This document shows positions 2,105-46,992 of a stretch of 46,992 bases of DNA, in pieces. Within the stretch, counting starts at the first letter, position 1. The number at the start of each line of letters is the position of its first letter. The stretch covers positions 1-46,992 of the forward strand of contig JAJYAG010000030.1 in assembly GCA_021779665.1 (NCBI GenBank), given 5' to 3'. A program made the position numbers and the translations under genes. The notes under the pieces are model-generated. The model saw only the letters and a program-made list of their open reading frames with translations. It was not told where the DNA came from and made no database searches. The DNA is from Bacteroidota bacterium (GTDB lineage: Bacteria > Bacteroidota > Bacteroidia > Bacteroidales > JAAUTT01).

Positions 2105-3175
2105 ATGAAACAAGACTCAAACATCGAAAATCTGATTCAGAAGTTCAACCACGGAGCTGCTTCCAAGGAAGAGCTGCTTGTTCTTTTAGCTTATTTTAAA
2201 GAACACGACCCCGGAAACGAACTCCTGAATGTCTATCAGAAAGCGTGGGATGCAGCAGCATCGGGTAACGGATTCCCGGATGCGGCTGAAGAGTATTCCC
2301 TGCTGGTTAACCGGATCAATAAAACGCGATTAATTCCGGTAAAATCAAAAAAAGTTATGATGCAGAATTTCCTGAAATATGCAGCAGTTTTTGTTGCAGC
2401 CTTTGCTATAGCATGGTTTGCAAATAATATGCTTCGTACTGCTGATAACAAATACGGGAGCAACTTTCAGAATATTGAAGTCCCTTACGGCTCCAAAACA
2501 AAGATTGAACTACCCGACGGCTCCATGGTTACCCTCAATTCGGGTTCACGGCTTAAGTACGAAAACGGGTTAGGAAAAGACAACCGCACAGTTTACCTTA
2601 CCGGCGAGGCCTACTTCGATATAAAAAAGGATGCAGAAAGACCCTTTTATGTGAATACCTCGGGCATTAAAATAAAGGTGCTGGGGACAAGCTTTAATGT
2701 GAAGGCCTATCCTGAGGAAAAAACCGTAGAAACCACGCTGATTACCGGTAAGGTGGAAATATTTAAATCGGGCGAAAAGTCTTTAAAAACGCCAATGGCA
2801 GTGTTAGCTCCGGGACAAAAAGCTGTTTTTGACAAAGCGCTGGGCAAACAAATTACCGAAAAAGAGGAAGAAGTGAAAGAAGAAATTGCAAAGCTTTCCT
2901 CATCCATTCAGGTCGAAAAAGTTGTTCACCCCGAAATCACTACCGGTTGGAAAGACAATCAGCTTGTATTTGACAATGAAAGATTTGAAGAGCTGGTTAT
3001 AAAAATTGAACGTTGGTACAATGTCGAAATTCAGCTAAGTAATACCGAACTCAAAGATGCCCGGTTCTCGGGTAAATTCGACAAGGAAACCATTGAGCAG
3101 GCCATGAAAGCTTTAACACTTGTTACTCCATTCCGCTTCGAAATGGACAAGAATAAAATAACCATTACAAAGTAA
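2105..3175 (+). CDS. FecR-family anti-sigma factor (PUL 1)
   Basis: This 356-residue inner-membrane regulator has a cytoplasmic N-terminal region (residues 1-85) expected to bind the sigma factor. One transmembrane helix lies at about 88-107 (KYAAVFVAAFAIAWFA). The periplasmic FecR domain spans about 122-220, with the typical IEVPYGSKTKIELPDGS and GEAYFDIKKD phrases. A DUF4974-like C-terminal domain lies at about 285-356 (ERWYNVEIQL and ALTLVTPFRFEM). In the family, the periplasmic part contacts the N-terminal STN domain of the partner SusC receptor and relays substrate binding to the sigma factor. The gene lies between the sigma factor and a SusC with an STN domain, as expected. The ATG at 2105 gives the normal length. 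Confidence 0.92.
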   Translation: MKQDSNIENLIQKFNHGAASKEELLVLLAYFKEHDPGNELLNVYQKAWDAAASGNGFPDAAEEYSLLVNRINKTRLIPVKSKKVMMQNFLKYAAVFVAAFAIAWFANNMLRTADNKYGSNFQNIEVPYGSKTKIELPDGSMVTLNSGSRLKYENGLGKDNRTVYLTGEAYFDIKKDAERPFYVNTSGIKIKVLGTSFNVKAYPEEKTVETTLITGKVEIFKSGEKSLKTPMAVLAPGQKAVFDKALGKQITEKEEEVKEEIAKLSSSIQVEKVVHPEITTGWKDNQLVFDNERFEELVIKIERWYNVEIQLSNTELKDARFSGKFDKETIEQAMKALTLVTPFRFEMDKNKITITK

Positions 3176-3356
3176 AGCAGTCATGTTTATAAACTGCACT
3201 AAATATCGTAATTCAAAAACTTAATACTGAAATGCCTATGGAATAACTGAAACAAGCTACTACAAAAACTAAAAAGCGGAAAATGCTACCAACATTTCCC
3301 GCCAATTAAAATGAATGTCTAACGGAAATTAAACAAATCATTAACATGTCAAATTT

Positions 3357-5396
3357 ATGAAAAAAGTTCATAATTCTTTGTCAGGTAGGGATAACTATTA
3401 CCTGAAAAAAATACTACTCACTATGAAAATTTCAACGCTTTTACTTATTGTTAACCTCCTACACATTAGTGCTATAGGTTATTCCCAGGGTGAAAAGCTC
3501 AATGTTCAGCTTAAAAATGCTTCGTTAAAAGAAATGTTTTCAGTTATTGAGAAGCAAACCGGATACAAGTTTCTTTACCGCGACGATGTGCTCGAAAATA
3601 TTGAAGTGAATATCCAGGCTAAAGATATGACGTTAAACGAAGTGCTTCACAAGGCTCTAGAACGTTCATCTAATTCGTACCTGATACTTGATAATAAACT
3701 TATTGTTATATCGTCGAAGGAAACCCTGCAGCAGAAAAAGATTACAGGCACCATTACCGATGGCAGTACCGGTGAGCCCATTGTAGGCGCAAATATCATC
3801 ATAGAAGGAACTACAATTGGCACAACCACTGATATTGACGGTAAATTTACCCTCGATATTAATAAAGACAATGCAATACTTATTATTTCATTCCTGGGCT
3901 ACAATACCGAAAGAGTTGCTTTTGCAGGTCAAAGCAATTTATCGGTTCAGCTTATCCCCGATATCAAAAGTCTTGAAGAGGTAGTTGTGGTCGGTTATGG
4001 TACCCAGAAAAAGGTTAACCTTACCGGATCGGTATCAACCGTCAATAACGACGATCTTGCCAAAAAGCAGGTAGGACAAACATCTATGGCTCTCCAGGGT
4101 ATAGTTCCGGGCGTTACCGTTACACAGCGCAGTGGTCAGCCGGGTCGCGATGGTGGCAGTATCCGCATTCGCGGTATTGGTACTTTGGGCGATTCCAACC
4201 CCCTGGTGCTGATGGATGGGGTTGAAACGAGTATCAATAACATCGATCCGAACGAAATTGAAACCATGTCGGTACTGAAAGATGCTGCATCGGCTGCTAT
4301 TTATGGTTCCCGTGCCGCCAACGGAGTAATTCTTATCACAACTAAACGTGCCAAGGCAAATACATTCAGCATCAATTACAATACCTACATTGGCTGGCAA
4401 CAACCAACCGATTTACCTAAAATTGTAAATGCTGTCGACCACATGGAAATGATTAACGAGGCTTATGTAAATGTTGGTCGTACCCCTTTGTATTCGCAGG
4501 ATTACATAAATGAATATAAGACACTCGGTCCCACCAACAGAGACAAATATCCTGATACCGACTGGCAGAAGCTCACCGTTACCGAAAACGGATTCACCCA
4601 GAACCATTACCTGGGATTGAATGCCGGTGGTGATAAGGTTCGTGTGCTTGGATCGTTCAATTATATCGATCAGGATGGGATAATTGCCAATACAAACTTC
4701 AAGCGATATAATTTCAGGTTAAATTCTGACATTCAGCTGAATAAAAAATTCAGCAGCTCATTCGATTTGTCATTGCGACGCACCAACCTTACAGAACCAT
4801 CTTCGGGTACAGGTTACATTTTCCATTGGATGCGCCGTATCCCGGCAAATCAGGGTGGTGTTCTTTCAAACGGCAAATATGGCGAAGGGTGGAATGGCGA
4901 TCATCCGCTGGCTCGCGCCAAAGATGGCGGATTAAACACCGAAGAAGCCATGAGCGCCATCATGAACTTCACTTTGAAATATAAACCCTCCGACTGGTTA
5001 ACAGCAATGGTTAATTATGCTCCCAAGTATAATGAACCTCATTATAAATCTTTCAGCAATATCATTCAAACCTATAAGGCAGATTTATCCCCGAGCTATG
5101 CGGTTCCCGCCAAGAATTCACTGAATGAATCTTTCAGCAGGGAATGGTACAACAACCTGAGTGCCACCGTTACAGCCGATAAGACTTTTGCAGATACTCA
5201 TCAGTTAACATTTCTTGCAGGATTTCAGCAGGAAGATTTCGTAAACAGTAATATTTCGGCTTATCGCGAAGTTTTCCTTCTGCCTGAATACCAGATGATC
5301 AACTCGGGTAACAGGTTAAACGAGAGAACCGGCGGATCGGGATCACATTGGGCTTTGAGGTCAGTCTTTGGCCGCCTTACTTATAATTTTATATAA
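3357..5396 (+). pseudogene. SusC/RagA TonB-dependent receptor, 5' part, interrupted by an IS element
   Basis: Residues 1-679 of an outer-membrane SusC-type receptor. In order they show a signal peptide (about 22-43, ending IGYSQ), an STN domain (48-118) that usually contacts FecR, a carboxypeptidase-regulatory-like domain (129-200), a TonB-box-like EEVVVVGYGT (207-216), the plug (about 217-330, with VLKDAASAAIYGSRAANGVILITTK split across it) and the first part of the beta barrel. Translation runs into the left inverted repeat of an IS630-type element and stops at 5394-5396. The frame resumes at 6510. Deleting 5392-6509 joins the codons without any frame loss, giving 1101 residues, a normal SusC length. 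The receptor should be non-functional while the element is in place, since half of the barrel is missing. Confidence 0.9.
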
Positions 5397-5417
5397 ATCC
5401 TAATAAGTAATTACACA
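5392..5417 (+). repeat. Left terminal inverted repeat of the IS630-type element
   Basis: It begins TATAAATCC and contains TAATTACACA. It aligns with the reverse complement of 6482-6507 with four mismatches in 26 bases. The orfB stop codon (5400-5402) lies inside this repeat. Confidence 0.8.
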
Positions 5418-5942
5418 TAATTTAGATAAGAAAGAGTTAGGTTTTAAGCATGCAGAAAATAGCTGCCAAAACTTAATCAAACGTTCTTTGAGAGATGATA
5501 AATATCGGTTGTGGGTAATTTTTTTCCGCATGAACCACCACACGCGTTCAACAGGATTCATATCGGGAGAATACGCAGGTAAATACCTAATTTGTAATTT
5601 GGGATGTTTTTCAAGAAAGTTATTCAATTTTCGGGCATGATGATAGCGGACATTATCCACGTATATGATAATTGAAATTGCATCCGTGTATGCAAACAAG
5701 ACCTTCTTGAGATGTTTTTTGAACGATTGATAATTCCCTCGTTCAGCAAAACTTACCGTTAATTGACCAGTCAAGGGATTAACACTTCCTAGTCCTGTAA
5801 GCCTTTCTCTTTTAGATTGCTGACTTACAACAAGCGGTTGTTTACCTTTGATAGCCCAATTGTAATGAAGGGTTGCGGTATTGCTTAAGCTAAATTCGTC
5901 TTCAAAAAGAACCACGTGCTTTGAAGAGGCCTCGCCTAAAGT
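5400..5942 (-). CDS. IS630 transposase orfB, DDE catalytic half, read by -1 frameshift
   Basis: This frame encodes the catalytic part of an IS630 transposase. VVLFEDEFSLSN carries the first acidic residue, IIIYVDNVRYHHA the second Asp, and YLPAYSPDMNPVERVWW the final Glu. The frame has a GTG at 5915 but no convincing independent start, and it already contains family sequence upstream of that codon. It is best explained as the second half of a 348-residue fusion made when ribosomes slip back one base at 5942-5948; the first new codon then reads Thr. Transposases of this family cut and paste at TA sites. All three DDE residues are present, so it may be active. Confidence 0.88.
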   Translation of the reverse strand, partial: TLGEASSKHVVLFEDEFSLSNTATLHYNWAIKGKQPLVVSQQSKRERLTGLGSVNPLTGQLTVSFAERGNYQSFKKHLKKVLFAYTDAISIIIYVDNVRYHHARKLNNFLEKHPKLQIRYLPAYSPDMNPVERVWWFMRKKITHNRYLSSLKERLIKFWQLFSACLKPNSFLSKLCVITY

Positions 5943-6445
5943 TTTTTTATTTCAGTTTTTATTTGAGCACGAAGATCTTCGTTCCGCTCAGGATAAATAC
6001 CACGACCGCGCTGATAGCTAAACCCTAGCTCATGTAACAAGTTGTAAATCTGAGCTTGCTTGTAAGTTACCTGAAAGGTTTTCTGTATATAGTCACTTAC
6101 AATTGGGCCTGTCCACGTGGAAGTATTATAGCCGTAAGTATCCGGTAAGGAAAGTAGATCCTTTTGCAATTGGGCCATCTGATCTGGAGTTAGACGTCCT
6201 GGACGTCCATTTCGCTTCTTGTCCCGTAAACCTTCTATGCCATTGGAGTCAAAACTATTTACCCAGTTTCGTATTTGTTTGAAACTAGTATTATAGAGTT
6301 CCTCTAGTTGTCGACTAGATTTTCCTATAGAAACTTGATAAACTGCGTATAAGCGCAACCCAATTTTATATTTATCATCCTTGTCAAAGAACGCTTTCAC
6401 CTGCTCTGGTGTATAGTTTTGTAATATTTTTACTTTGCGACCCAT
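5936..6445 (-). CDS. IS630 transposase orfA, helix-turn-helix DNA-binding half
   Basis: This 169-residue frame is the N-terminal DNA-binding half of an IS630 transposase. A first helix-turn-helix lies at about residues 30-60 (YAVYQVSIGKSSRQLEELYNT). A second winged-helix-like part lies at about 80-150, including the hinge KNGRPGRLTPDQM and YNLLHELGFSYQRGRG. In this frame it ends shortly after an A7 run, at a TAG, before any catalytic Asp. Alone it could bind the IS ends and act as an inhibitor, as orfA products of other IS elements do; that role is inferred. The full transposase needs the -1 shift into orfB. Confidence 0.88.
   Translation of the reverse strand: MGRKVKILQNYTPEQVKAFFDKDDKYKIGLRLYAVYQVSIGKSSRQLEELYNTSFKQIRNWVNSFDSNGIEGLRDKKRNGRPGRLTPDQMAQLQKDLLSLPDTYGYNTSTWTGPIVSDYIQKTFQVTYKQAQIYNLLHELGFSYQRGRGIYPERNEDLRAQIKTEIKKL
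5942..5948 (-). other. Programmed -1 ribosomal frameshift site (A AAA AAA) in the transposase
   Basis: On the minus strand orfA reads ATA AAA AAA CTT TAG. Slipping back one base on A-AAA-AAA gives ACT TTA GGC and enters orfB at the point needed to join the helix-turn-helix half to the DDE half. The heptamer fits the X-XXY-YYZ rule. I did not identify a clear downstream pseudoknot or stem. Confidence 0.75.
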
Positions 6446-6481
6446 AAGGTGTTTCTCGCAAAGTTATAAAAATTAATTATT

Positions 6482-6507
6482 TGTGTAATTATTTATTGTA
6501 ATTTATA
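6482..6507 (-). repeat. Right terminal inverted repeat of the IS630-type element
   Basis: Its reverse complement begins TATAAATTAC and continues with TAATTACACA, matching the left end with four mismatches in 26 bases. It is followed by the TA target copy at 6508-6509. Confidence 0.8.
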
Positions 6508-6509
6508 TA

Positions 6510-7780
6510 ATCAGAAATATCTGTTTGAAGCCAATGCCAGGTATGATGGTTCATCGCGTTTCGCAAAGGGAAACAGATACTCTTTCTTCCCTTCAGTTTC
6601 GGCCGGTTGGAGAATTTCGGAAGAAGAATTTATGAAACTATATTCGAATACCATAACCAACCTGAAATTGCGTGCATCGTGGGGCCAGCTTGGTAACCAA
6701 AACATCGGTCTGTATCCTTACGCGTCGTTTGTAAATATTGGCGGCAGCAACTACTTATTCGGCGATCTTGTAACCACAGGAGCTTCGCTGAACGAAATGG
6801 CCAACTCAAAAATTAAGTGGGAAACCACAGAAGCCAGTGATATCGGACTTGATTTAAGTCTGTGGTCGAAACTCACCGTTACTGCCGATTATTACTATCG
6901 AAAGACTAACGATATTTTGCTGCGACTGGATGTTCCTCAAATGATAGGCTTAACGGCTCCTTACCAGAATGCCGGAGTGGTTGAGAATAAGGGTTGGGAA
7001 CTCTCGGTAAACTATCATAACAACATTGGCGATTTTACCTACGATATTACAGCCAACCTTTCGGATGTAAAAAACAAGATTGTGGATATGAAAGGTATCA
7101 ACAAAACAGGGCTGCAGGTAAATCTTGAGGGTAATCCAATGAGCTCCCTTTATGGATACCAGGCAGTAGGATACTTTAAGGATGCCGAAGATGTTGCCCA
7201 CAGTGCGAAACAGTTTGGAACTGTTGCACCAGGCGATATCAAATACCAGGATATGAATGGCGATTCGATTATTAATAACCTGGATCAGAAGGTTCTTGGT
7301 TCTGTGATACCCCGCTACACCTATAGTTTGAATGTTGATCTTGGCTACAAAGGTTTTGACTTTTCAATGTTTATTCAGGGTGTTGGGGAAGCAAACGGTT
7401 ATTTGTATGGCCAGGGAATTATGCCATTCAATATGGGCGGCACTGTTCAGGAACAGCATAAAGACCATTGGACACCCGATAATACCGATGCCAAATTCCC
7501 CCGTTTTGCATTCAACGAAATTAACAACGAGCAAAACTCAAGCTTCTGGATGAAAGATGCTTCCTACCTGCGTCTGAAAAATATTCAGCTTGGCTATTCC
7601 TTACCCAAAAGTGTATTGCAAAAAGTTTCTATCCAGAACCTCAGGATTTATGTAAGTGGTCAGAACCTCTTCACATTCGATAAATTCTGGGATGGGTACG
7701 ATGTCGAAGCTCCTGTTAGCGATGGTGGCTGGTACCCGCAACTTAAAATTTACAGTGTGGGATTGGATGTTAAATTTTAA
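6510..7780 (+). pseudogene. SusC/RagA TonB-dependent receptor, 3' part after the IS insertion
   Basis: This is the remaining 423 residues of the PUL 1 receptor: outer-membrane beta-barrel strands starting NQKYLFEANARYDGSSRF and ending with the typical aromatic C-terminus (GLDVKF). Reading is continuous with 3357-5391 once the IS and one target copy are removed, and no other disabling mutation was seen. The first in-frame ATG is at 6632, but a barrel fragment without a signal peptide would not be exported. The SusD gene follows 12 bases downstream, so any reversion by precise excision would restore a normal SusCD operon. Confidence 0.9.
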
Positions 7781-37815: not shown

Positions 37816-40800
37816 TCATCCTTTCTTCGCTTCATTCACCTTAAATACATCGGCATAAATCAGCTTATCCGTTTCGGATGATTGCTCTACTCTGTCCTTG
37901 TAATTGCCAATATCCAGCCGGGCCGGTCCGCGTTCGTATTCTTCCACTATCACCTGAAACGGACTGTTTTTATAATCGTTCGGCAGCCTGAAATCGCGGC
38001 TTATCTTAAATTTATTACCTTCCAGATCCTTCCGGGTAATTGAGAAAGTCAGGCCCTCTTCATCTAACCGGATCTTGTTCACTCCATCGTCGATAACACC
38101 GTAAAGTGGCTGGGCTACGCGACTGTCGAGAATGGTGACTTTAATGTAATTGGAAACATCCTGCTTGTTGGGCATGTCGTTGTAAATTGTTCCTTCGATG
38201 GTGAGCGTGAACTTCGAATTTACGTCGTCCTTTTTAAACTGAAGAATGGAGGTTCGGTCGGGCATTAACTGGATAAAGTCGGCCATCACCACATTCGAGA
38301 GACAAACATCGTCGGTGCCTTTGCGTACTGAATGCTGCTGATATCTTGCCAAAGCGAGCTTTATAAACGGGAAATACATGTTTTTTGGGTTGATGGCCAG
38401 ATCGCAGAACCACATCTGCCGCTCCTCGTCAAATTGAACAGGATATCCAACCACATCGGCTCTGGCTCCGCCACCTTCGGGATACTGCACGTCATCATCA
38501 ATCACGGGGCCCATTCTGAAATCGCCGGTTTGTGGTGACAATGTTTCCGGAGGTGTTGAATTATGCAGCGGATCGATTCCCCAATGGGTATACTTTGTTG
38601 TATAGCCAGGGATTGTCAATGCCATGGTGGTTACTGCTCCTGCTTTTTTTGCCGGCGGAAGCAGGATTCCAAGCATTTCATCGGCTCCAGAAGAATACCA
38701 GGGGCGCTTCAGATAAATTCTCAAGCCCCCGCCCAAACGCTGGTGACGGATAGTGGTTTCGTTCTGCGCTTTCCGCCACTCAAAAGTGGGGATGATATAA
38801 TCAATCTCGGGAACTGCAGGCCGCGCTGTGCTCAGAATATTGATCTTCTCCACCCATTTGCTTTCGCGAAGGGTTGTAAGCGATGGATTATTTTTCAGAA
38901 TTTTATCGAAATATTCCCTGTACCTTGAGGCCGAAACCAGACTGTAATCTACCCACCGGTGTCTGGTGTCGCCAAAGTCCTGTACCAGCGGATCGATCCT
39001 GAGTTGAACCTGCTTCAGAAAATTAAACTTCGATTCGGCAATTTCAAATTTAAGGTTGTTCACCAGGTTTTTAGGCGCCTGAAGCTTTTGCTGCTGAATG
39101 GTTTCCAGTTTTACACTCTGCTTCTGGAATAATGTATTTACCCGTTTCGATTCGGGTTGAGGATCAGCCCTGAACTCGGTAATATTCCTTTTAGGAAGGT
39201 CCCGGTAAGGCTGAAACGCAAGATTAGGCTTTTCTTTAAGTTCCATTTTGGGAATGGAAGGAATAGACCCTTTGGTGATCACATCGTCGTTATAATGAAC
39301 TGTAACATCGGGTATGGAATTGCGTCCCTGCTTCTCCTTGATGGTCATGGAAATGTTATCGTCGAGCGGATCGACCCATTTGGCCTGAAACTCTACCTTT
39401 TCGGTGCTTTCGCCATGAACGGCAAACCGGGTGTTAATTTTCACCGTTGTTTCGGAGAAATCCCTGTCGGGAATTAAAGCCTGAATGACCGGTTCGTTAA
39501 CGGGCTGCTGCACTGCATGAACCAGCTCCAGCTCGCGCGCCGGACTTACCATCCAGTGTTGACCTGCTTTTGCCAGATTTTCAAGCTCGGCGAGATTGGA
39601 AGGCTTTTCGTCGGCTACCATCTTCCAAACGGCTGATAGCTGTTTCATATCTTTTTCGCGCCAGAAAGTGCTGTAGCGGATCCTCATCCTGTAGCCTTTC
39701 GGCAGATAAACCGTGAAAATACGGTCGCTGCTGTTCCATTTGGCGTCAATCTCTCCTTCTTCGAGCCTGATACGCACTATCCCAGCATTGTACCAGTCGC
39801 CGGGAATGGTCCCGTTGGTATCGTCGGGTGACAATTCGCTATTTGTAAAAAACCCAAACATCCTCGGTTTAAACTCCTGACTGTGTGTATCTTCATTGCC
39901 TTCGTCGAGGAAGAAAGCTACGCCTGCGGCCATAGGATCGGGCAGATAAATGATCTCGATTTCCGAGGGCTGGTAAACTTTTTCCACGGTTTTATCCGCA
40001 CGCTCGTACAAACCTTCGTGGGCAGCAATAATTTTATAAATTTCCTGCGCTGCGGCCGGATTATTTGTAAAAGCCTGCTCGAATTTGCCGTGGTATTCGG
40101 CTATCTGCTGGCTGTTCTTTGGCGGGAGCAGATACCGCTGGGAATAGTCGGGATAGGTTTTACCAGCAACAGGATGGGCGTTTTCGTAATCTTTGGGTGA
40201 AATATCATAGTTGCTGCGGATCACCATAGTTTCCAGGAATTCACCATCGCGCAGCTCATTTCCGACAAGGATAATAGGGCTGGCCAGCGGCTCATAACGC
40301 ATATACCGGATATTTTTACGAATATTCAGGCCCGGATCTTCGGTCTGCTGCTCCAGAGGTACGCTGTTGCCGGCCAGATCAACGGTGCGGATTCGGATGC
40401 TGTAATCCTTACCAAACCTGAGCTTTGGCAATGTTCCCGGTACTATCTTCGAAACGGCATTCACCCTGAAGGTCAGATCGGGATCAAAAGCATATTTCTT
40501 CATTTCTTCCGCTTTGCTGGTATTTACAAAGTCGCGTTTCACATCTGTTCCCGATTTGGGCTTATAGTCCTCGCCCTCGTTTATAGCATAACCGGGTTTT
40601 CTCACCGAAAGGCTCCAACCTTCCCAACGGGCCAGTGTTTCCGAAACAAATACATCGTCCGGATCATCCGGGTCTTCGGCAATACCAAGCTCAATAGAGC
40701 CCTCGTCGGGTTCAATGCCTTCCACCGGTGTGGCTTTGCCGGTTTCGTCGAACCACGTGTATTCCTCCTGGCGCTTGTGCAGCGAATACCATTTGCCGGG

Positions 40801-42153
40801 CTTCTCGTCGTAAGCAATATCCATGCGGTAACCCTGCACGAGATCAGAAGAATAAAGTGCGTTGTCGGGTACCTTAATTTTTAATTCGGCACGGAAAGGA
40901 GCTTTTTCAATCACCATAGCCTGCAACTCCATATTGCTCTTAAACCGCGAAAGTATATGCACGGCCATACCGTTTTTGGTGATGGCAATACCTGCAGAAC
41001 GCATGTAAGGCAAGCCCTCATCTTCGGGGACTTCCACCGGTGTAACCTTTGTAAGGTCAATTTTACGGCTCAGGGCAACTTCCGACTTGGCCTCATAGAA
41101 TTTTGCAATCTGGTGCACCTTGTTTTCGGTCATGTTATTGGCCTTAATCGCCGCACCATCGGCATCAACCTGAATTACCGAGAACTCATCAGTGTTGATT
41201 TTTACAAAACCTTTGCTGAAGATGGAATCAGGCTTATCGGCCACGTAAAAGCCGGTTGATGTAAGCACGTAAGCCGTGGGAGGAGCGGATAACGTAGAGC
41301 TTCCCTCGTCGATTTGCAATCCCGACGGTATAAAATGAACATTCCCGTTTGCCGGAATATCGCTCTGATAAGGGATATGAAAGTCGAGCACAAACCCGAG
41401 TTTACGCATAAACTGCGGATAGCTGTTGATCACCGATAATATTTCGTGAAACTCGAACTCAGGTTTTTTGACAGGTTTCACCACCCGGGCTTTCGGTTCT
41501 TTATTCAAACGGTGAAAAGTCCGGAACTGGGCAAAATCCATCACCGGGTTCATCTCTTTGGATACGGCTCTCACTCTGTTAACCATCAGATGCTGACGTA
41601 GGGCGTTTTCCTCATCCTTACGCTGGATAAGCAAACTTGACGACTTGAGGCGCATGGTTTGCCGTGGAGTTCCTACACGGTTTATTTCGGTTTCGTTAAG
41701 CTTTAGACGCGAAATAACACCAAAGCTGTTATCGTCTATAAACTTATCGGCGGTGAGCAGTCGCGTGGGACTTTCAACTGCAGTTTTTATGTAGTTCTTA
41801 AATAGAAAATCGTTTACATGCTTCAGCGGAAATGAGTTGATACGCTTCACCGTGAGGTCTTCCTGCATAAAGCCTTTCATGCGGATATCACTGTGGAAAA
41901 TATCTTTAAACAAAGCCGCGTCTGGCTTTTTTATAAGCTCGGCATTGATGGTAACTCCATTGTTAAAGCGGAACTGGTAAGTTGAAGCCAGGATTTTCTC
42001 TGCCCAGTTCAAAATATCGGGAAAAGCACCCAGATTGGAGTCCTTTGCCGTCTTCAACCTGACAGATACAAAAACTGACAGCTTCAGATATTGTTTACCA
42101 CCCGCTTCGGTACGGTAATGAGGTAAGCTTGTAAAGATTAGTTCCTGTGACAT
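37816..42153 (-). CDS. Very large protein of unknown function (1445 aa), second gene of a giant pair
   Basis: I do not recognise a family. The protein starts MSQELIFTSLPHYRTEAGGK and shows no signal peptide or transmembrane helix. It is rich in beta-strand sequence. A stretch near residue 580, YSIRIRTVDLAGNSVPLEQQ, resembles a fibronectin type III or Ig-like strand pair. Later blocks include WMVSPARELELVHAVQQPVN and a Gly/Pro-rich segment around GGGLRIYLKRPWYSSGADEM. Cysteines are very few. It begins 91 bases after the stop of the other giant gene, in the same orientation, so the two are probably an operon. A large structural or binding protein acting with its neighbour is the most that can be inferred. 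Confidence 0.85.
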   Translation of the reverse strand: MSQELIFTSLPHYRTEAGGKQYLKLSVFVSVRLKTAKDSNLGAFPDILNWAEKILASTYQFRFNNGVTINAELIKKPDAALFKDIFHSDIRMKGFMQEDLTVKRINSFPLKHVNDFLFKNYIKTAVESPTRLLTADKFIDDNSFGVISRLKLNETEINRVGTPRQTMRLKSSSLLIQRKDEENALRQHLMVNRVRAVSKEMNPVMDFAQFRTFHRLNKEPKARVVKPVKKPEFEFHEILSVINSYPQFMRKLGFVLDFHIPYQSDIPANGNVHFIPSGLQIDEGSSTLSAPPTAYVLTSTGFYVADKPDSIFSKGFVKINTDEFSVIQVDADGAAIKANNMTENKVHQIAKFYEAKSEVALSRKIDLTKVTPVEVPEDEGLPYMRSAGIAITKNGMAVHILSRFKSNMELQAMVIEKAPFRAELKIKVPDNALYSSDLVQGYRMDIAYDEKPGKWYSLHKRQEEYTWFDETGKATPVEGIEPDEGSIELGIAEDPDDPDDVFVSETLARWEGWSLSVRKPGYAINEGEDYKPKSGTDVKRDFVNTSKAEEMKKYAFDPDLTFRVNAVSKIVPGTLPKLRFGKDYSIRIRTVDLAGNSVPLEQQTEDPGLNIRKNIRYMRYEPLASPIILVGNELRDGEFLETMVIRSNYDISPKDYENAHPVAGKTYPDYSQRYLLPPKNSQQIAEYHGKFEQAFTNNPAAAQEIYKIIAAHEGLYERADKTVEKVYQPSEIEIIYLPDPMAAGVAFFLDEGNEDTHSQEFKPRMFGFFTNSELSPDDTNGTIPGDWYNAGIVRIRLEEGEIDAKWNSSDRIFTVYLPKGYRMRIRYSTFWREKDMKQLSAVWKMVADEKPSNLAELENLAKAGQHWMVSPARELELVHAVQQPVNEPVIQALIPDRDFSETTVKINTRFAVHGESTEKVEFQAKWVDPLDDNISMTIKEKQGRNSIPDVTVHYNDDVITKGSIPSIPKMELKEKPNLAFQPYRDLPKRNITEFRADPQPESKRVNTLFQKQSVKLETIQQQKLQAPKNLVNNLKFEIAESKFNFLKQVQLRIDPLVQDFGDTRHRWVDYSLVSASRYREYFDKILKNNPSLTTLRESKWVEKINILSTARPAVPEIDYIIPTFEWRKAQNETTIRHQRLGGGLRIYLKRPWYSSGADEMLGILLPPAKKAGAVTTMALTIPGYTTKYTHWGIDPLHNSTPPETLSPQTGDFRMGPVIDDDVQYPEGGGARADVVGYPVQFDEERQMWFCDLAINPKNMYFPFIKLALARYQQHSVRKGTDDVCLSNVVMADFIQLMPDRTSILQFKKDDVNSKFTLTIEGTIYNDMPNKQDVSNYIKVTILDSRVAQPLYGVIDDGVNKIRLDEEGLTFSITRKDLEGNKFKISRDFRLPNDYKNSPFQVIVEEYERGPARLDIGNYKDRVEQSSETDKLIYADVFKVNEAKKG

Positions 42154-42207
42154 AAAAAGACATTTTCTATATTATTACCAAGATATTTCATTAAAGGCGT
42201 TCTTTCT

Positions 42208-42226
42208 CCCTCTCCCCCGGAGAGGG
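42208..42226. repeat. CCCTCTCC/GGAGAGGG hairpin between the two giant genes
   Basis: CCCTCTCC (42208-42215) pairs with GGAGAGGG (42219-42226) over three bases. The arms are the same as those in the repeat at 11626-11707, so it belongs to the same dispersed family. It lies in the 91-base gap between two co-oriented genes. Confidence 0.6.
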
Positions 42227-42244
42227 CAGGGGAGAGGCTTCCTT

Positions 42245-45200
42245 CTAGCTCGCAAAAGCAAGGCAGTAATCATTCCAGTCGTCTTCCATCACCATATCCA
42301 CAAACTTGGGATCGGCATCGGCACCCATCAGTTCACGGCGAACATTTACAGAAACTGTTTTGCTGAAGAACAGCACTTCCACTTTCACCTTCAGAGTTGC
42401 TTCGCCTTCCATACGGGTCACCTTGTCCTTTCCGGCAACCTTTTCAATGACTGCGGTGAGAGCCAGGTAAAACTCCATCGAAACCGTTATTAATCCAAGA
42501 ACGGAAAGATGGCCGTTGATGCGGATGTATCCGGTAAGCGTGGTTTTAGCATCACCCGAAACTATTTCGACTTTGAAGTAAAAGCCTCCCATCACCGAAA
42601 CGGCTCCGGAAGCAACGCCTACATTCAACGAAACAGCAGCACCAAATTCGAAGGCAGCCTCGATCGACTGTACTCCTTTGAGCGTCGATACCAGTTTAAA
42701 GAAACCGCCTCCGCCGTAAATTGAAATAGTAAGCAAAAATGGATTTTCGCGACGGCAGAAATTAAACGAAAGCGTTAACGGAGCCCCGGTGAAGGGCAGT
42801 GTTACAGCTGCTCCCAGGCTGATATTGGTAATCATGCACATTCCAAGGGTAACATCGGGAATGCTGAGATTAAATCCTGCGGTTACTCCGGTAGGTTTAA
42901 GATCGATATATGGTCCGTCGTCCGAAAAGCCTGTGCTTGGAATAATGCTTTGCAGGTTGTTTACAAAAGTTAAAACTCCCTGGAATTTGATGGGGTCGTC
43001 CTTATCGATGTCCACCTTTACATCGGTTTTGGCCGAGGTGCCGGAGCGGAATTCGAGGTAATTGAAATTAACCACCATTAAGGGAACGATATCCACTCCA
43101 AATTTTTCGAAACGTGCGTTACTGCTGAACTTAGATGGCTGAGAAGTATCAAAAGGCCTTTCCAGCAGCGATGTAATTGTAAGCGCGGTCTGCGGATTGG
43201 CAACTTTCACATTCAACAGCGAAGGAATTACGGTAATATCCTTGCCCTTGAACTCGGGCTGCCATTTATATTCGGCAAAGAACGACAGATCGGTAGTATA
43301 TACCTTTAAATTAGGCATCTTGGGCATATTGCCGTTGAGCGAATTTAAAAGTTCGGTAACCTTATCTTTCAGCTTTTGTTTCAATTCGGCCAGTTTGGCA
43401 CTAACATCGGATGCCAGTGTTTTGGCCTGATTTTCGAGCGCAAGCATTTCGTTGCGGATGTCTTCCAGCTCTTTCTTGAGCTGATTCACTTTGGCTATCA
43501 ATGCATCAAAATCGCCCTTCAGATCGACTTCGCCCAAAAGGCTGAAAATATCGATTACCCCGAATATTTTAGCGGCCGGAAACTCCGTTAGTGCTGCAAA
43601 AAACTTATCAGCCTTAAACATCAGGTTTTTGCAATCTTCAATATCGCCACCTACCGGTCCCTGCAACTTGCTTAATCCATTCACCGCCATGTTTGGCGAA
43701 AGAAATCCTCCGGCCTTATCGCTTCCTCCTGTAAAATCGACTACGGCTCCCTTAACCCGGGCAAAAACTTTTCCGGGATTGTTGTCGTCCTCGAGCGAAA
43801 TATTCGCCGGTTTGCGGATTCCTGTAAGCTCTTCGATGGATTTGATATACACATCGGCCGACTGCATCACCGGATGAAACTTGATATCGGCCAGCCCCTT
43901 TGCAGGATAAACTTTGCCGCCAAACAGCAGTGTGTCAGTTTCGAAAGCGGTATCGTTATCCACAAAACTTTCGGAATAAGCTACCTTTTGACCATCAAAC
44001 TTAGTAAGGGCATAAGCGGTGTTGGGATTATAAACATCAATCACCTGCTGCATCAGGGAAGCGTCGCGGGCAATGCTGTTTTCTAGGAAAACAAGCGGCA
44101 TCCTTATCTGATGCTCCTTATTCTCCTTGTCGGTTGCTATGATGCTGAATTTAAAACCTTCGCCCCCAACATTGATATAGAAGTTGTATGTGGTATTTTT
44201 CCCAATTTTAAGTATAATAAATTTAGAATTACCCGACGAGGTGGGTGGCACTTTAATAAGTGACTTTTCTTCGGGATTATCAATATCGGGTGTGGAAAGC
44301 GTTTCGATGCGGATAGCCTGGAACGGAAACTCAATAAATTTTCCGTTAGGATCGGTACGGTTGTAGAATACTTCTTTTTCGAGCACCACAATATACATGC
44401 GCTGCCGGTTCAATGCGGCCCGCGTTTCCTTGTGAAACTTACGTTCGGTGACTTTTACCACTGCCGCACGGTGCCCAAACGGGAAAAGATAACCTTCCTC
44501 CACCACTTTAACATAATGGTCGCGGCCAAGCGTTGCAAGATGTTCCCACTCAATGATATTGAGAGAACTATCGATGGGTGCCGGTACATCGAAGAAGGCA
44601 TGCCAGTCCAGATAAGCCCCGAGCGAAGTCAGCATGAGCTTTTTAACCGGTACAGCAAAAGGTTTAAACCCAGGAATGGTATAGTTGGATGTTGTATGAA
44701 CCAGCTTATGGCGGTTATTTGCATCGAGTGAGGCCATAAACGGCACATTGCGTTCCACTTTATCCTGGTAGTTGGGAGTGGCATCGTCGGCCCACAAAAC
44801 CCTGATTGTTTGCAGGTTTTTGAAGGTAGCGATGCTTGTTTTTCCGTCTTTGAGCTTAACGCCCATGCGGGTGTGCCAGAGTTCGGCTATCTCGCCTTTT
44901 GATGCTTCAAGGGAATCGATCACACGCGCCTGACTGGTGACCACCAAGGGTCGCTTAAATCCGGCAATTTCAACATCTCTCAGGTCGAGTTTCGTTTTAT
45001 GAGTAAAATCGTTTAACTGATTCGGCGAAATATACATCAACGTTGGCGCCTCAATGGAGGTGCTTGTGGCCGGAATGGGAGCTACACGCAGGTCCACCAG
45101 CTTCATGGCGGCAATACTGAAAGTTGGCTTCAGGGTTGTGGATTTATCAGCCCTCACAAAGTTGTCGATCAGCTCGGGCCTGTAAACAGCCTGGTTGCTT

Positions 45201-46990
45201 CGTGACAGAGGCGATTGCTGATCCAGCTTTATGTTGTATTCCAGCGTTGCAGGTTTGTTTTTAAGGTTGGGAATGCGCGACTGGTTAGCAGAAGCGGGCA
45301 ATTTCATATCAAAAGAATTCTTCGTCAGAATATTCTCCAGTTTTACCCAGGCACGCGGATGAACACGCAGATCGAATTTGGACCAGTCGAGCAGCTCCTC
45401 CATGATCAGCGGAAATCCGGGATGACCTGCTGAAAGTTCGTATGCAAGCCGGCTTTTCCTTGCGCGGATTTGCATGGCCGGAAGCTTTATTTCAGTCTCC
45501 GAAATGGTTTTATCATAATTGGGAACTTTGGTCGATTCGAACCAGGCTTGTTCCAGCGTATGCTGTGTCTGGAAATAGATAATCACCAGACCTTTACTGG
45601 CAGGGTCGTCCAGTTCCATAAACGGCGCCTGACCTTTGTTCGAGAATTTAAAATTATGAAACTCGAACTCAAGCACCATCAGGTCTTCAGGGCGAAGTAT
45701 CCTGATTTTCAAAGCCTTTTTGGGAATGAACCTAACGTCGTCGTAATTCAGGTTAAGCTGCGGAATATTCCGGTTCACCTGCGTGGCAGCAGCTTTGTTT
45801 ACCTGACGTTTTGCCGGAGGATCCTGAGGATTTGAGTTGAATCCGATTTCATCCTCTTCAGGATGCCTGCTTTTACGTTTGCTTTGAATGCGTATTGCAT
45901 GCGAATTTTCGAAATAGGAGGGCAATGTGAGCGCATTTCCCACCACAGGCTGAAAAGCCATCAGTTTGGGTTCGAAAACATGGCCCGAAACCGACATCTC
46001 TTTACCGAAAGCCTCAAAAGCAGGTCGGGAATCACCATTCTTAAACTGAAACGAACCTAAGGCATTCGGAACCCACTGTCCGCCAGCAGCTAAAGAGGCT
46101 CCCAGGTAAAATTCAGATGGCTGGTTTTCTTTGAATTCGGAAAAATATAAAAACCTGTCGAAGTTGAATTTACTGTCAAGTTTCCGATCGGGCCAGTATT
46201 GTACCGCCTCATTTGCAGAAACCCAAACCGCGTTGTAACCGGTACTTGCAGCAAGTATATGAATATCAGGCTGTGCCTGGGTGATAAGCTTATCCGCTCC
46301 ATCGAAATTAATTTTGGAAACAACCTTCTCCCATCCTCCAAATTGAGGAAGCGTATAATGAACAGCATTACCGGGAGCGCTTTTGAATACCTGGTTTTCC
46401 CCGTTGAAAGGACGAAGTATAAGATTGTCACCAACAAAATCACTGAAATGAAGTTTCGACTGAACAGACTTTTCCCCGTGAAAATTGAAGTTCCACTGAT
46501 GGTTAAGTCTTCCCGAACACTCTCCCGTCAGCATCAACCGCAGATCTTCTCTGTTTGCAAGAAACGAATTCCCAAAAACAGTTTTAAAGCCGAGAGCGGT
46601 TTTTCCATCGAGCCATTCAATAAAGTTAAGCTGCTCTTTGATGCAAAGTTCAGGAATTTCAATATTCATCAACCAGTCGCTGCCATTGTGAAAAATTTCG
46701 CCATGCATAGAAAAATGCAAGTCGGAGTGATTTACGGTCAGATTCCGGATATTAAAATCATAACGGTCCTTACTTTCTGCGCATTTCACCTCTGGATGAC
46801 CGGCAAAAAAGCCTCTGGCAACCGACCATGCAATTTGTCCGTTTCGCTCCACTTCAAAACGGTTTTTGGTGTATCTCACCGAAAAAGGTTTAAAGCTTAT
46901 GGCTTTCACCGTCTCGGCAACAGGATTCATGGCAAGCACGCCAAGACCTACTTTTCGGAGAAAGTTACGCCGGTTACTGCCGGATGGAAC
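42245..46990 (-). CDS. Very large Tat-exported protein of unknown function, 5' end outside window
   Basis: The frame is open from the stop at 42245 to the window edge, at least 1581 residues. The first in-window start codon is a GTG at 46939, but the 17 codons upstream read VPSGSNRRNFLRKVGLG and run into VLAMNPVAE, a typical twin-arginine signal (RRNFLRK plus a short hydrophobic stretch). The true start is therefore just beyond the window. The mature part is mostly beta-rich. A coiled coil covers roughly residues 1140-1210 counted from 46939 (LIAKVNQLKKELEDIRNEML and SAKLAELKQKLKDKVTELL). The last 250 residues have alternating glycine-rich beta strands (SIYGGGGFFKLVSTLKG, SGAVSVMGGFYFKVEIVSG). 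The protein should be exported folded through Tat. I know no function. The partner gene follows 91 bases downstream. Confidence 0.85.
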   Translation of the reverse strand, partial: VPSGSNRRNFLRKVGLGVLAMNPVAETVKAISFKPFSVRYTKNRFEVERNGQIAWSVARGFFAGHPEVKCAESKDRYDFNIRNLTVNHSDLHFSMHGEIFHNGSDWLMNIEIPELCIKEQLNFIEWLDGKTALGFKTVFGNSFLANREDLRLMLTGECSGRLNHQWNFNFHGEKSVQSKLHFSDFVGDNLILRPFNGENQVFKSAPGNAVHYTLPQFGGWEKVVSKINFDGADKLITQAQPDIHILAASTGYNAVWVSANEAVQYWPDRKLDSKFNFDRFLYFSEFKENQPSEFYLGASLAAGGQWVPNALGSFQFKNGDSRPAFEAFGKEMSVSGHVFEPKLMAFQPVVGNALTLPSYFENSHAIRIQSKRKSRHPEEDEIGFNSNPQDPPAKRQVNKAAATQVNRNIPQLNLNYDDVRFIPKKALKIRILRPEDLMVLEFEFHNFKFSNKGQAPFMELDDPASKGLVIIYFQTQHTLEQAWFESTKVPNYDKTISETEIKLPAMQIRARKSRLAYELSAGHPGFPLIMEELLDWSKFDLRVHPRAWVKLENILTKNSFDMKLPASANQSRIPNLKNKPATLEYNIKLDQQSPLSRSNQAVYRPELIDNFVRADKSTTLKPTFSIAAMKLVDLRVAPIPATSTSIEAPTLMYISPNQLNDFTHKTKLDLRDVEIAGFKRPLVVTSQARVIDSLEASKGEIAELWHTRMGVKLKDGKTSIATFKNLQTIRVLWADDATPNYQDKVERNVPFMASLDANNRHKLVHTTSNYTIPGFKPFAVPVKKLMLTSLGAYLDWHAFFDVPAPIDSSLNIIEWEHLATLGRDHYVKVVEEGYLFPFGHRAAVVKVTERKFHKETRAALNRQRMYIVVLEKEVFYNRTDPNGKFIEFPFQAIRIETLSTPDIDNPEEKSLIKVPPTSSGNSKFIILKIGKNTTYNFYINVGGEGFKFSIIATDKENKEHQIRMPLVFLENSIARDASLMQQVIDVYNPNTAYALTKFDGQKVAYSESFVDNDTAFETDTLLFGGKVYPAKGLADIKFHPVMQSADVYIKSIEELTGIRKPANISLEDDNNPGKVFARVKGAVVDFTGGSDKAGGFLSPNMAVNGLSKLQGPVGGDIEDCKNLMFKADKFFAALTEFPAAKIFGVIDIFSLLGEVDLKGDFDALIAKVNQLKKELEDIRNEMLALENQAKTLASDVSAKLAELKQKLKDKVTELLNSLNGNMPKMPNLKVYTTDLSFFAEYKWQPEFKGKDITVIPSLLNVKVANPQTALTITSLLERPFDTSQPSKFSSNARFEKFGVDIVPLMVVNFNYLEFRSGTSAKTDVKVDIDKDDPIKFQGVLTFVNNLQSIIPSTGFSDDGPYIDLKPTGVTAGFNLSIPDVTLGMCMITNISLGAAVTLPFTGAPLTLSFNFCRRENPFLLTISIYGGGGFFKLVSTLKGVQSIEAAFEFGAAVSLNVGVASGAVSVMGGFYFKVEIVSGDAKTTLTGYIRINGHLSVLGLITVSMEFYLALTAVIEKVAGKDKVTRMEGEATLKVKVEVLFFSKTVSVNVRRELMGADADPKFVDMVMEDDWNDYCLAFAS

Positions 46991-46992
46991 TA

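Follow-up and report, generated by a model that had tools for sequence, protein, structure and literature searches.

In Escherichia coli, the Tat hitchhikers PaoABC and HybOC carry a twin-arginine signal on one subunit, and the partner has none. PaoABC is a 135-kDa complex that is co-translocated and that PMC4273604 counts among the largest structures exported. The upper range of Tat cargo is given as 150 kDa in an excerpt of a review (PMC6708511). Two adjacent giant genes of a Bacteroidota bacterium resemble these hitchhikers in that a twin-arginine signal is found on one product, P0002 (component A), and not on the other, P0001 (component B). They differ from them in several respects: neither a redox cofactor nor an enzyme family was identified for the pair, each protein exceeds 150 kDa, some lineages have no signal, and co-translocation of the two is a proposal.

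Two further groups of described proteins resemble parts of the pair. FnIII/Ig-like proteins (Ihog FnIII, PorU) match one predicted sandwich of P0001 with Z 9.1 and 8.3, whereas P0001 matches no Pfam or NCBIfam family at E up to 1, curated FnIII/Ig families included, and its whole-chain architecture is unmatched. CymA, LptD and MTP share with the P0002 C-terminus a predicted amphipathic beta meander (CymA and porins in VIA-align, LptD and MTP weakly in Foldseek), but P0002 gives low whole-chain TM-scores, has no barrel sorting signal and bears a Tat rather than a Sec signal. A profile search of PDB sequences revealed no relation in sequence between P0002 and proteins of this type.

Here we describe the two genes in the window, that is, the whole stretch of 46,992 nucleotides that was analysed, and compare them with relatives from genomes, plasmids and a viral collection. 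The genes are paired and co-inherited, and a Tat-type signal is found on component A only. We propose that the products may act as one exported complex.

Results

Two giant genes at a contig end

The genome (G000), of 6.9 Mb and placed in the Bacteroidota by its nearest relatives, includes the window as contig C294; the pair occupies the right end of this contig (Table 1). P0002 precedes P0001 in the order of transcription. The contig ends at position 46992 and the start of P0002 is missing; about 20-30 residues are lost, judged from Bacteroidia relatives that have more residues before the twin arginine (RR). The visible N-terminus reads SGSNRRNFLRKVGLGVLAMNPVAE and contains the twin-arginine motif. 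A preliminary description, made from the sequence of the window, had pointed to two adjacent, co-oriented giant genes, and both frames are indeed present, with predicted masses of 165 kDa for P0001 and 177 kDa for the P0002 fragment. Frames of such length with conserved relatives across many phyla are not due to chance.

Table 1. Features of the P0002/P0001 locus, in window positions
Feature	Position	Strand	Remarks
P0002 gene (component A)	42245..46990	-	1581 codons, 5' end lost at contig edge
P0001 gene (component B)	37816..42153	-	1445 aa, no export signal
Spacer P0002/P0001	42154..42244	-	91 bases
P0002 Tat-type signal region (NRRNFLRKVGLGVLAMNPV...)	46919..46975	-	From sequence; kept in most relatives
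P0002 strongly conserved core, about residues 786-870	44381..44635	-	Source of the collection-scan patterns
P0002 coiled-coil helical hairpin, residues 1162-1221	43328..43507	-	Weak coiled-coil matches; predicted helices at model 743-773 and 778-802
P0002 C-terminal amphipathic beta meander, residues 1350-1556 (model 931-1137)	42323..42943	-	Predicted in model
P0001 best-matched FnIII-like sandwich, residues 882-1109 (model 658-885), with helical insert	38827..39510	-	Predicted; Z 9.1, 100 residues, rmsd 2.8

On the 3' side of the pair, two small frames of the window are followed by an ABC transporter set (ABC_tran and a solute-binding protein, by Pfam), which we take to be of the polyamine type; neither the small frames nor the transporter set gave a hint to the role of the pair. 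Elsewhere in the window, an insertion element with DDE_3 and HTH frames (5400-6445, minus strand; Pfam), presumably of the IS630 type, lies inside a SusC-like TonB receptor gene (3357-7780, plus strand), leaving a plug part (3357-5396) and a barrel part (6632-7780). A glycan-use region (9627-29916) encodes an FAD oxidoreductase with Golvesin_C, an alpha-L-fucosidase and a sulfatase (one each scanned, Pfam), and presumably also sigma factor/anti-sigma and SusC/SusD-like genes, which were labelled from translations.

The genes stand side by side in a fixed order

Relatives were collected with patterns from the P0002 alignment, scanned against one genome per species for 84,980 species. This yielded 256 relatives, of which the best 80 were kept. 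Together with plasmid and phylum-sample loci and one contig from a viral collection they gave 112 contigs, or 108 after removal of duplicates (G145, G160, G271 and G291, equal to L145, L151, L168 and L162), which were dropped from all but the plain-regex RR counts. Both members of the very similar couples L127/L128 and L126/L134 were kept in the counts. The set was collected mostly through P0002, the only query of the genome-collection scan, and it is therefore blind to solitary P0001.

Both proteins were present in 98 of the 108 contigs, and in all 98 the genes lay on one strand with P0002 first. In 79 of the 98, the first in-frame P0001 ATG overlapped the P0002 gene or lay no more than 47 bases beyond its stop; the maximum was 561. 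Ten contigs had one protein only: eight are cut by the contig edge, and the other two (L134, L126) carry lone P0002 genes from genomes that each have two P0002 and two P0001 genes. These genomes contain one adjacent pair and a second pair whose halves are both retained but lie on different contigs; the split copy is spread over L207, L208, L209, L134 and L126 (genomes G493 and G494). No frame fusing P0001 to P0002 was found in the contig set.

Co-occurrence was assessed in 395 genomes of the phylum, 18 of which had both proteins, one P0002 only (G290), one P0001 only (G135) and 375 neither (Fisher p 6e-29, with kinship ignored). The window P0002 as query and a P0001 profile, ten of whose rows came from phylum-sample genomes besides the window's own, each retrieved 19 genomes, 18 of them in common (the window's included). 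The window P0001 alone recovered 17 of the 18 other P0002 genomes. In G290 the P0002 relative is remote and lies at a contig edge, and P0001 has no match; G135 has a weak P0001 match over 44 positions (E 5.9e-6) without P0002. Among plasmids, 16 records had a P0001 match, with P0002 adjoining in 13, as judged from the loci themselves or from match coordinates. The three others are rhizobial plasmids (L222, L223 and L224) with only a truncated P0001-like frame, of 1271, 528 and 702 residues; the stretches fetched around these frames contain no P0002. Transposase genes are near two of the three frames, and L222 is without annotation.

The trees of the two proteins are congruent. For 64 loci the distance correlation was 0.956, against 0.086 for the best of 200 label shuffles, and 30 of 40 well-supported P0001 splits recurred in the P0002 tree. 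P0001 and P0002 have travelled together.

The preliminary description had raised the question whether the genes always occur side by side. Adjacency and order were constant in the 98 contigs with both, but "always" does not stand, given a few solitary cases (the three rhizobial plasmids and G290). Homologues commonly found alone with a known role would have spoken against a joint system; solitary cases are few, and no known role was found. With a fixed order, co-occurrence, congruent trees, and split pairs that keep both halves, the suggestion that the proteins are functional partners is well sustained, and we consider the partnership very likely, a rating lowered slightly because of the three solitary plasmid frames.

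A patchy distribution across many phyla

The pair was absent from 59 near relatives of the window's genome, four of them of the same genus (P0001 query), so its distribution is patchy. The best 80 of the 256 relatives bear labels of 14 named phyla, with 40 Bacteroidota and ten unplaced, although some labels of metagenome-assembled genomes are doubtful (e.g. Bradyrhizobiaceae for L162 and Armatimonadetes for L134). The pair also occurs in Gram-positive Streptomyces. Five Alphaproteobacterial plasmids (L058, L059, L060, L061 and L218) encode a much larger version of about 2280-3310 plus 1590-1900 aa, with masses of 331 plus 192 kDa among them; in L059 the second protein is split into two frames.

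Sequence searches point to no described family

That the proteins belong to no recognisable family, as first supposed, was borne out by searches of Pfam, NCBIfam, PHROGs, PADLOC and PDB sequences, which gave sub-threshold matches only, mostly to the P0002 coiled coil. P0002 returned nothing but coiled-coil noise from Pfam and NCBIfam, the weak Pfam matches lying at residues 1156-1224. Neither protein had a credible match among PDB sequences with single-protein or profile queries; besides its coiled-coil matches, P0002 weakly matched neogenin FnIII chains (E 0.011). The best PHROGs matches had E 0.024 or worse.

A phage or viral origin was considered and rejected: tblastn against phage records gave no match to the pair, and the viral fold matches of the P0002 model were weak and of mixed kind. 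IMG/VR holds one relative (L171), on a contig that carries both genes. A role as a defence system is likewise not favoured: PADLOC gave no matches for window P0001, window P0002 or the L058 pair, despite defence-like neighbours in three Alphaproteobacterial versions, namely dpdE/dpdF (L059), WYL/N-6 methylase (L061) and HsdR/DUF4062 (L218). Narrow term searches of open-access papers found no description of the pair, which does not prove that there is none. Within the libraries and the narrow literature searches used, the two-gene unit is undescribed.

A Tat-type signal is found on P0002 only

The window signal, NRRNFLRKVGLGVLAMNPV, has a motif of the S/T-R-R-x-F/L-L/V type followed by an uncharged hydrophobic stretch, as in Tat substrates; it passes the looser of the signal rules applied and fails the second. 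Edge-cut frames were left out of the signal counts, and the window was kept in the second-rule and looser-rule counts. A plain regex for RR matched 72 of 97 P0002 frames and 5 of 102 P0001 frames, including some spurious matches (e.g. pRhizTP23 and L170). The strict rule, RR plus an uncharged hydrophobic stretch, was satisfied by 55 of 93 P0002, 0 of 98 P0001 and 101 of 896 background frames. The second rule accepted 74 of 94 P0002 N-termini. The looser rule accepted 77/94 P0002, 11/98 P0001 and 258/1204 background frames, and is weak alone because it also matches background and P0001; stricter motifs and inspection separate them. By inspection, 75 of the 94 P0002 N-termini were credible (pRhizTP23 and L170 being removed from the 77) and no P0001 N-terminus was.

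The N-terminus of window P0001 is not strongly hydrophobic (best 12-residue Kyte-Doolittle mean 1.29). A 12-residue mean of at least 2.0 was reached by none of 96 P0001 N-termini, compared with 19 of 20 Sec-type barrel neighbours; seven of the 96 reached 1.8. The P0002 count at 2.0 was low (16/93), as expected because Tat signals are weaker. The early claim of a Tat-type signal on one partner only thus agrees with the relatives as well as with the window. TatC is present in G000 (E 3.1e-68), which says little because nearly every genome of the phylum has one (391 of 395).

Nineteen of the 94 P0002 N-termini lacked a credible signal: five of the f74 family, G290 (whose N-terminus was not aligned), eight short forms and five others. 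In the eight short forms the match begins at profile position 449-461 and comprises the conserved core alone. The f74 proteins (G107, G335, G350, G389 and G413) keep the N-terminal domain without RR and are still paired, so that the pair outlasts the loss of its signal. All five large Alphaproteobacterial forms read have the RR motif. Upstream of RR, 36 of 69 P0002 with the N-terminal domain have the motif M-x(n)-LNLxxLR, found in 1 of 99 P0001 and in 6 of 1204 background frames, which were taken from these contigs as six-frame segments of 250 residues or more. It lies at the extreme N-terminus, e.g. in L150, L144, L168 and L092, is kept without RR in the f74 genomes, and could serve for docking, as a tag. 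The window has lost this region at the contig edge.

These signal-less forms bear on whether the basic role of the pair is cytoplasmic or Tat-independent, with the signal acquired in particular lineages to tether the complex or relocate it. The 19 N-termini, eight of them short forms reduced to the conserved core, would agree with such a role, as would the five f74 proteins that retain the N-terminal domain and the LNLxxL motif and not RR. The signal is present in most phyla sampled, however, and in both long and short forms, which makes it more likely that it was ancestral and then lost, as far as the distribution in sequences tells. We regard a Tat-independent basic role as improbable.

P0001 might instead be a cytoplasmic folding or proofreading chaperone dedicated to P0002, handing it to the Tat translocase. 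Small chaperones serve redox Tat substrates in this manner, and P0001 has no signal, is co-inherited with P0002, and would attend a protein that is by itself already above the usual Tat cargo size. Unlike known small Tat chaperones, however, P0001 is nearly as large as P0002 and has predicted Ig/FnIII-like sandwiches, and the pair persists where P0002 lacks a Tat signal. A dedicated chaperone is thus an unlikely identity for P0001, if one to be taken seriously.

Predicted structures

AlphaFold2 models were made from alignments of 75 (P0002) and 65 (P0001) rows. They cover residues 420-1581 of P0002 (mean pLDDT 83.7, pTM 0.72) and 225-1400 of P0001 (mean pLDDT 83.6, pTM 0.67). The structure searches bear chiefly on the P0002 C-terminus and on the P0001 sandwiches, and the absence of a family from their lists does not exclude it.

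The best VIA-align match of a P0001 sandwich was that to Ihog FnIII (Table 1), with a Z that is common among sandwiches, and whole-chain Foldseek gave poor matches only. The further early claim, a partner without a signal but with Ig/FnIII-like strands, holds for P0001 by hydropathy and by the sandwiches of the model. In a cell-surface fibre or adhesin, P0001 would be an Ig/FnIII shaft and P0002 its base, and the VIA-align matches of P0001 do include, besides FnIII, straight-fibre chains of phages T5 and DT57C (Z 8.2-8.5, rmsd 13). Such Z values are usual for beta sandwiches, however, and the rmsd of the fibre matches is very high; moreover, a surface anchor was not noticed on general inspection of the sequences, and the occurrence of the pair in Streptomyces also argues against a fibre. 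We consider a fibre quite improbable.

The P0002 model predicts a large conserved beta core, the helical hairpin (1162-1221), and a glycine-rich C-terminus in long beta strands. The Tat motif, coiled coil and glycine-rich beta C-terminus first ascribed to the signal-bearing protein are therefore all recovered in P0002, from sequence, weak matches and model, respectively. Compared with outer-membrane barrels, the meander aligned best with CymA (Z 13.3, 197 residues, rmsd 5.0). In Foldseek, LptD and MTP were weak matches, and whole-chain TM-scores on the query were 0.05-0.12 among the matches listed. Strong amphipathicity marks the six final strands of the model, each of 14-19 residues, in which mean hydropathy is +1.5 to +2.3 on one face and -0.5 to -1.8 on the other; two earlier strands (868-882 and 886-898, model numbering) are not amphipathic in this way. 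As modelled, the meander would fit a hydrophobic cavity, a covered sheet or a membrane barrel.

A beta-barrel pore or channel, formed by the meander within a membrane, would explain the alignment with outer-membrane barrels and the strong hydrophobic/polar alternation of most of its strands. Against this, the last strands, which mostly have 18-19 residues and are joined at each end by short turns, are atypical of a barrel; there is no aromatic C-terminal sorting residue (P0002 ends in CLAFAS), and an RR signal takes the place of a Sec signal. Relatives also occur in bacteria without an outer membrane, and folded export by Tat does not accord with assembly as an outer-membrane barrel. A pore is accordingly a highly improbable function for the meander.

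Linked genes in some lineages

Clustering of neighbours revealed two linked families, found only in Ignavibacteria, Kapaibacteria, Balneolia and some unnamed or unplaced relatives; loci with them include L070, L076, L078, L124, L127, L132, L143-L145, L148, L149, L151, L154, L162 and L166. One is a barrel-like protein of 618-713 aa, a predicted outer-membrane barrel, that ends in W in 19 of 20 members and in WN in one. The other is a secreted protein with a Sec signal, with RCC1 repeats (Pfam) in two of three genuine members scanned. Of its 24 clustered members, 22 were counted, from 21 loci, one being an 85-residue edge fragment; L126|3 and L134|3 were excluded for their different sequence. 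The secreted protein has a conserved N-terminal module, QPPPNQLRxADLWR.

Of 43 genomes searched with a profile of the barrel, five gave a strong match, and two of these five had supplied profile rows. The profile had no match in the window's genome, and the barrel was therefore rejected as a fixed third gene and placed outside the core. On a Sinorhizobium plasmid (S. meliloti LMB1), the pair is followed at a distance of about 50 bases by the start of a TatA gene (PF02416, E 2.4e-9). TatA was rejected as a regular partner, since among 11 plasmid loci with the pair or a fragment only L058 has it; another TatA-like plasmid match (L219) occurs where neither P0001 nor P0002 was seen. Judged by gene neighbourhood, the linked barrel, the secreted protein and the adjacent TatA are hints that would favour an extracytoplasmic role, and they are not universal.

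Discussion

The most likely reading of the pair, to which we give an even chance, is a two-component complex co-exported by Tat. P0002 and P0001 would be made together from a compact gene pair, and components A and B would fold and associate in the cytoplasm. In most lineages Tat would then export both as one folded cargo, with B riding on the signal of A. Outside the inner membrane they may act as a scaffold, with a long beta face that either lies under B or binds a hydrophobic ligand. We infer the physical complex, of which adjacency and co-inheritance are indirect signs, and likewise the co-export and the location of the two proteins; a hydrophobic-ligand role of the P0002 meander is speculative.

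Size is the main objection to co-export. P0001 at 165 kDa and P0002 at no less than 177 kDa each exceed by themselves the 150 kDa given in the excerpt of PMC6708511, although size is not a strictly defining criterion. The 19 signal-less P0002 N-termini also count against co-export, since the pair persists in those lineages. We hold the chances that P0001 is exported with P0002 to be about evenly balanced.

More tentatively, the pair could represent an undescribed extracytoplasmic machine in about 14 phyla (by record labels), with halves of more than 160 kDa co-exported in folded form via Tat and a meander holding a hydrophobic ligand or membrane component. Taken as a whole this is rather doubtful. 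If it were true, the folded co-export of both halves would involve a cargo about twice the reported Tat size. Export as one folded cargo would move the known size limit of Tat, and it would provide for study a hitchhiker pair in which no enzyme can be recognised. Natural experiments on the purpose of the signal are offered by the split pairs and by the lineages that have no signal.
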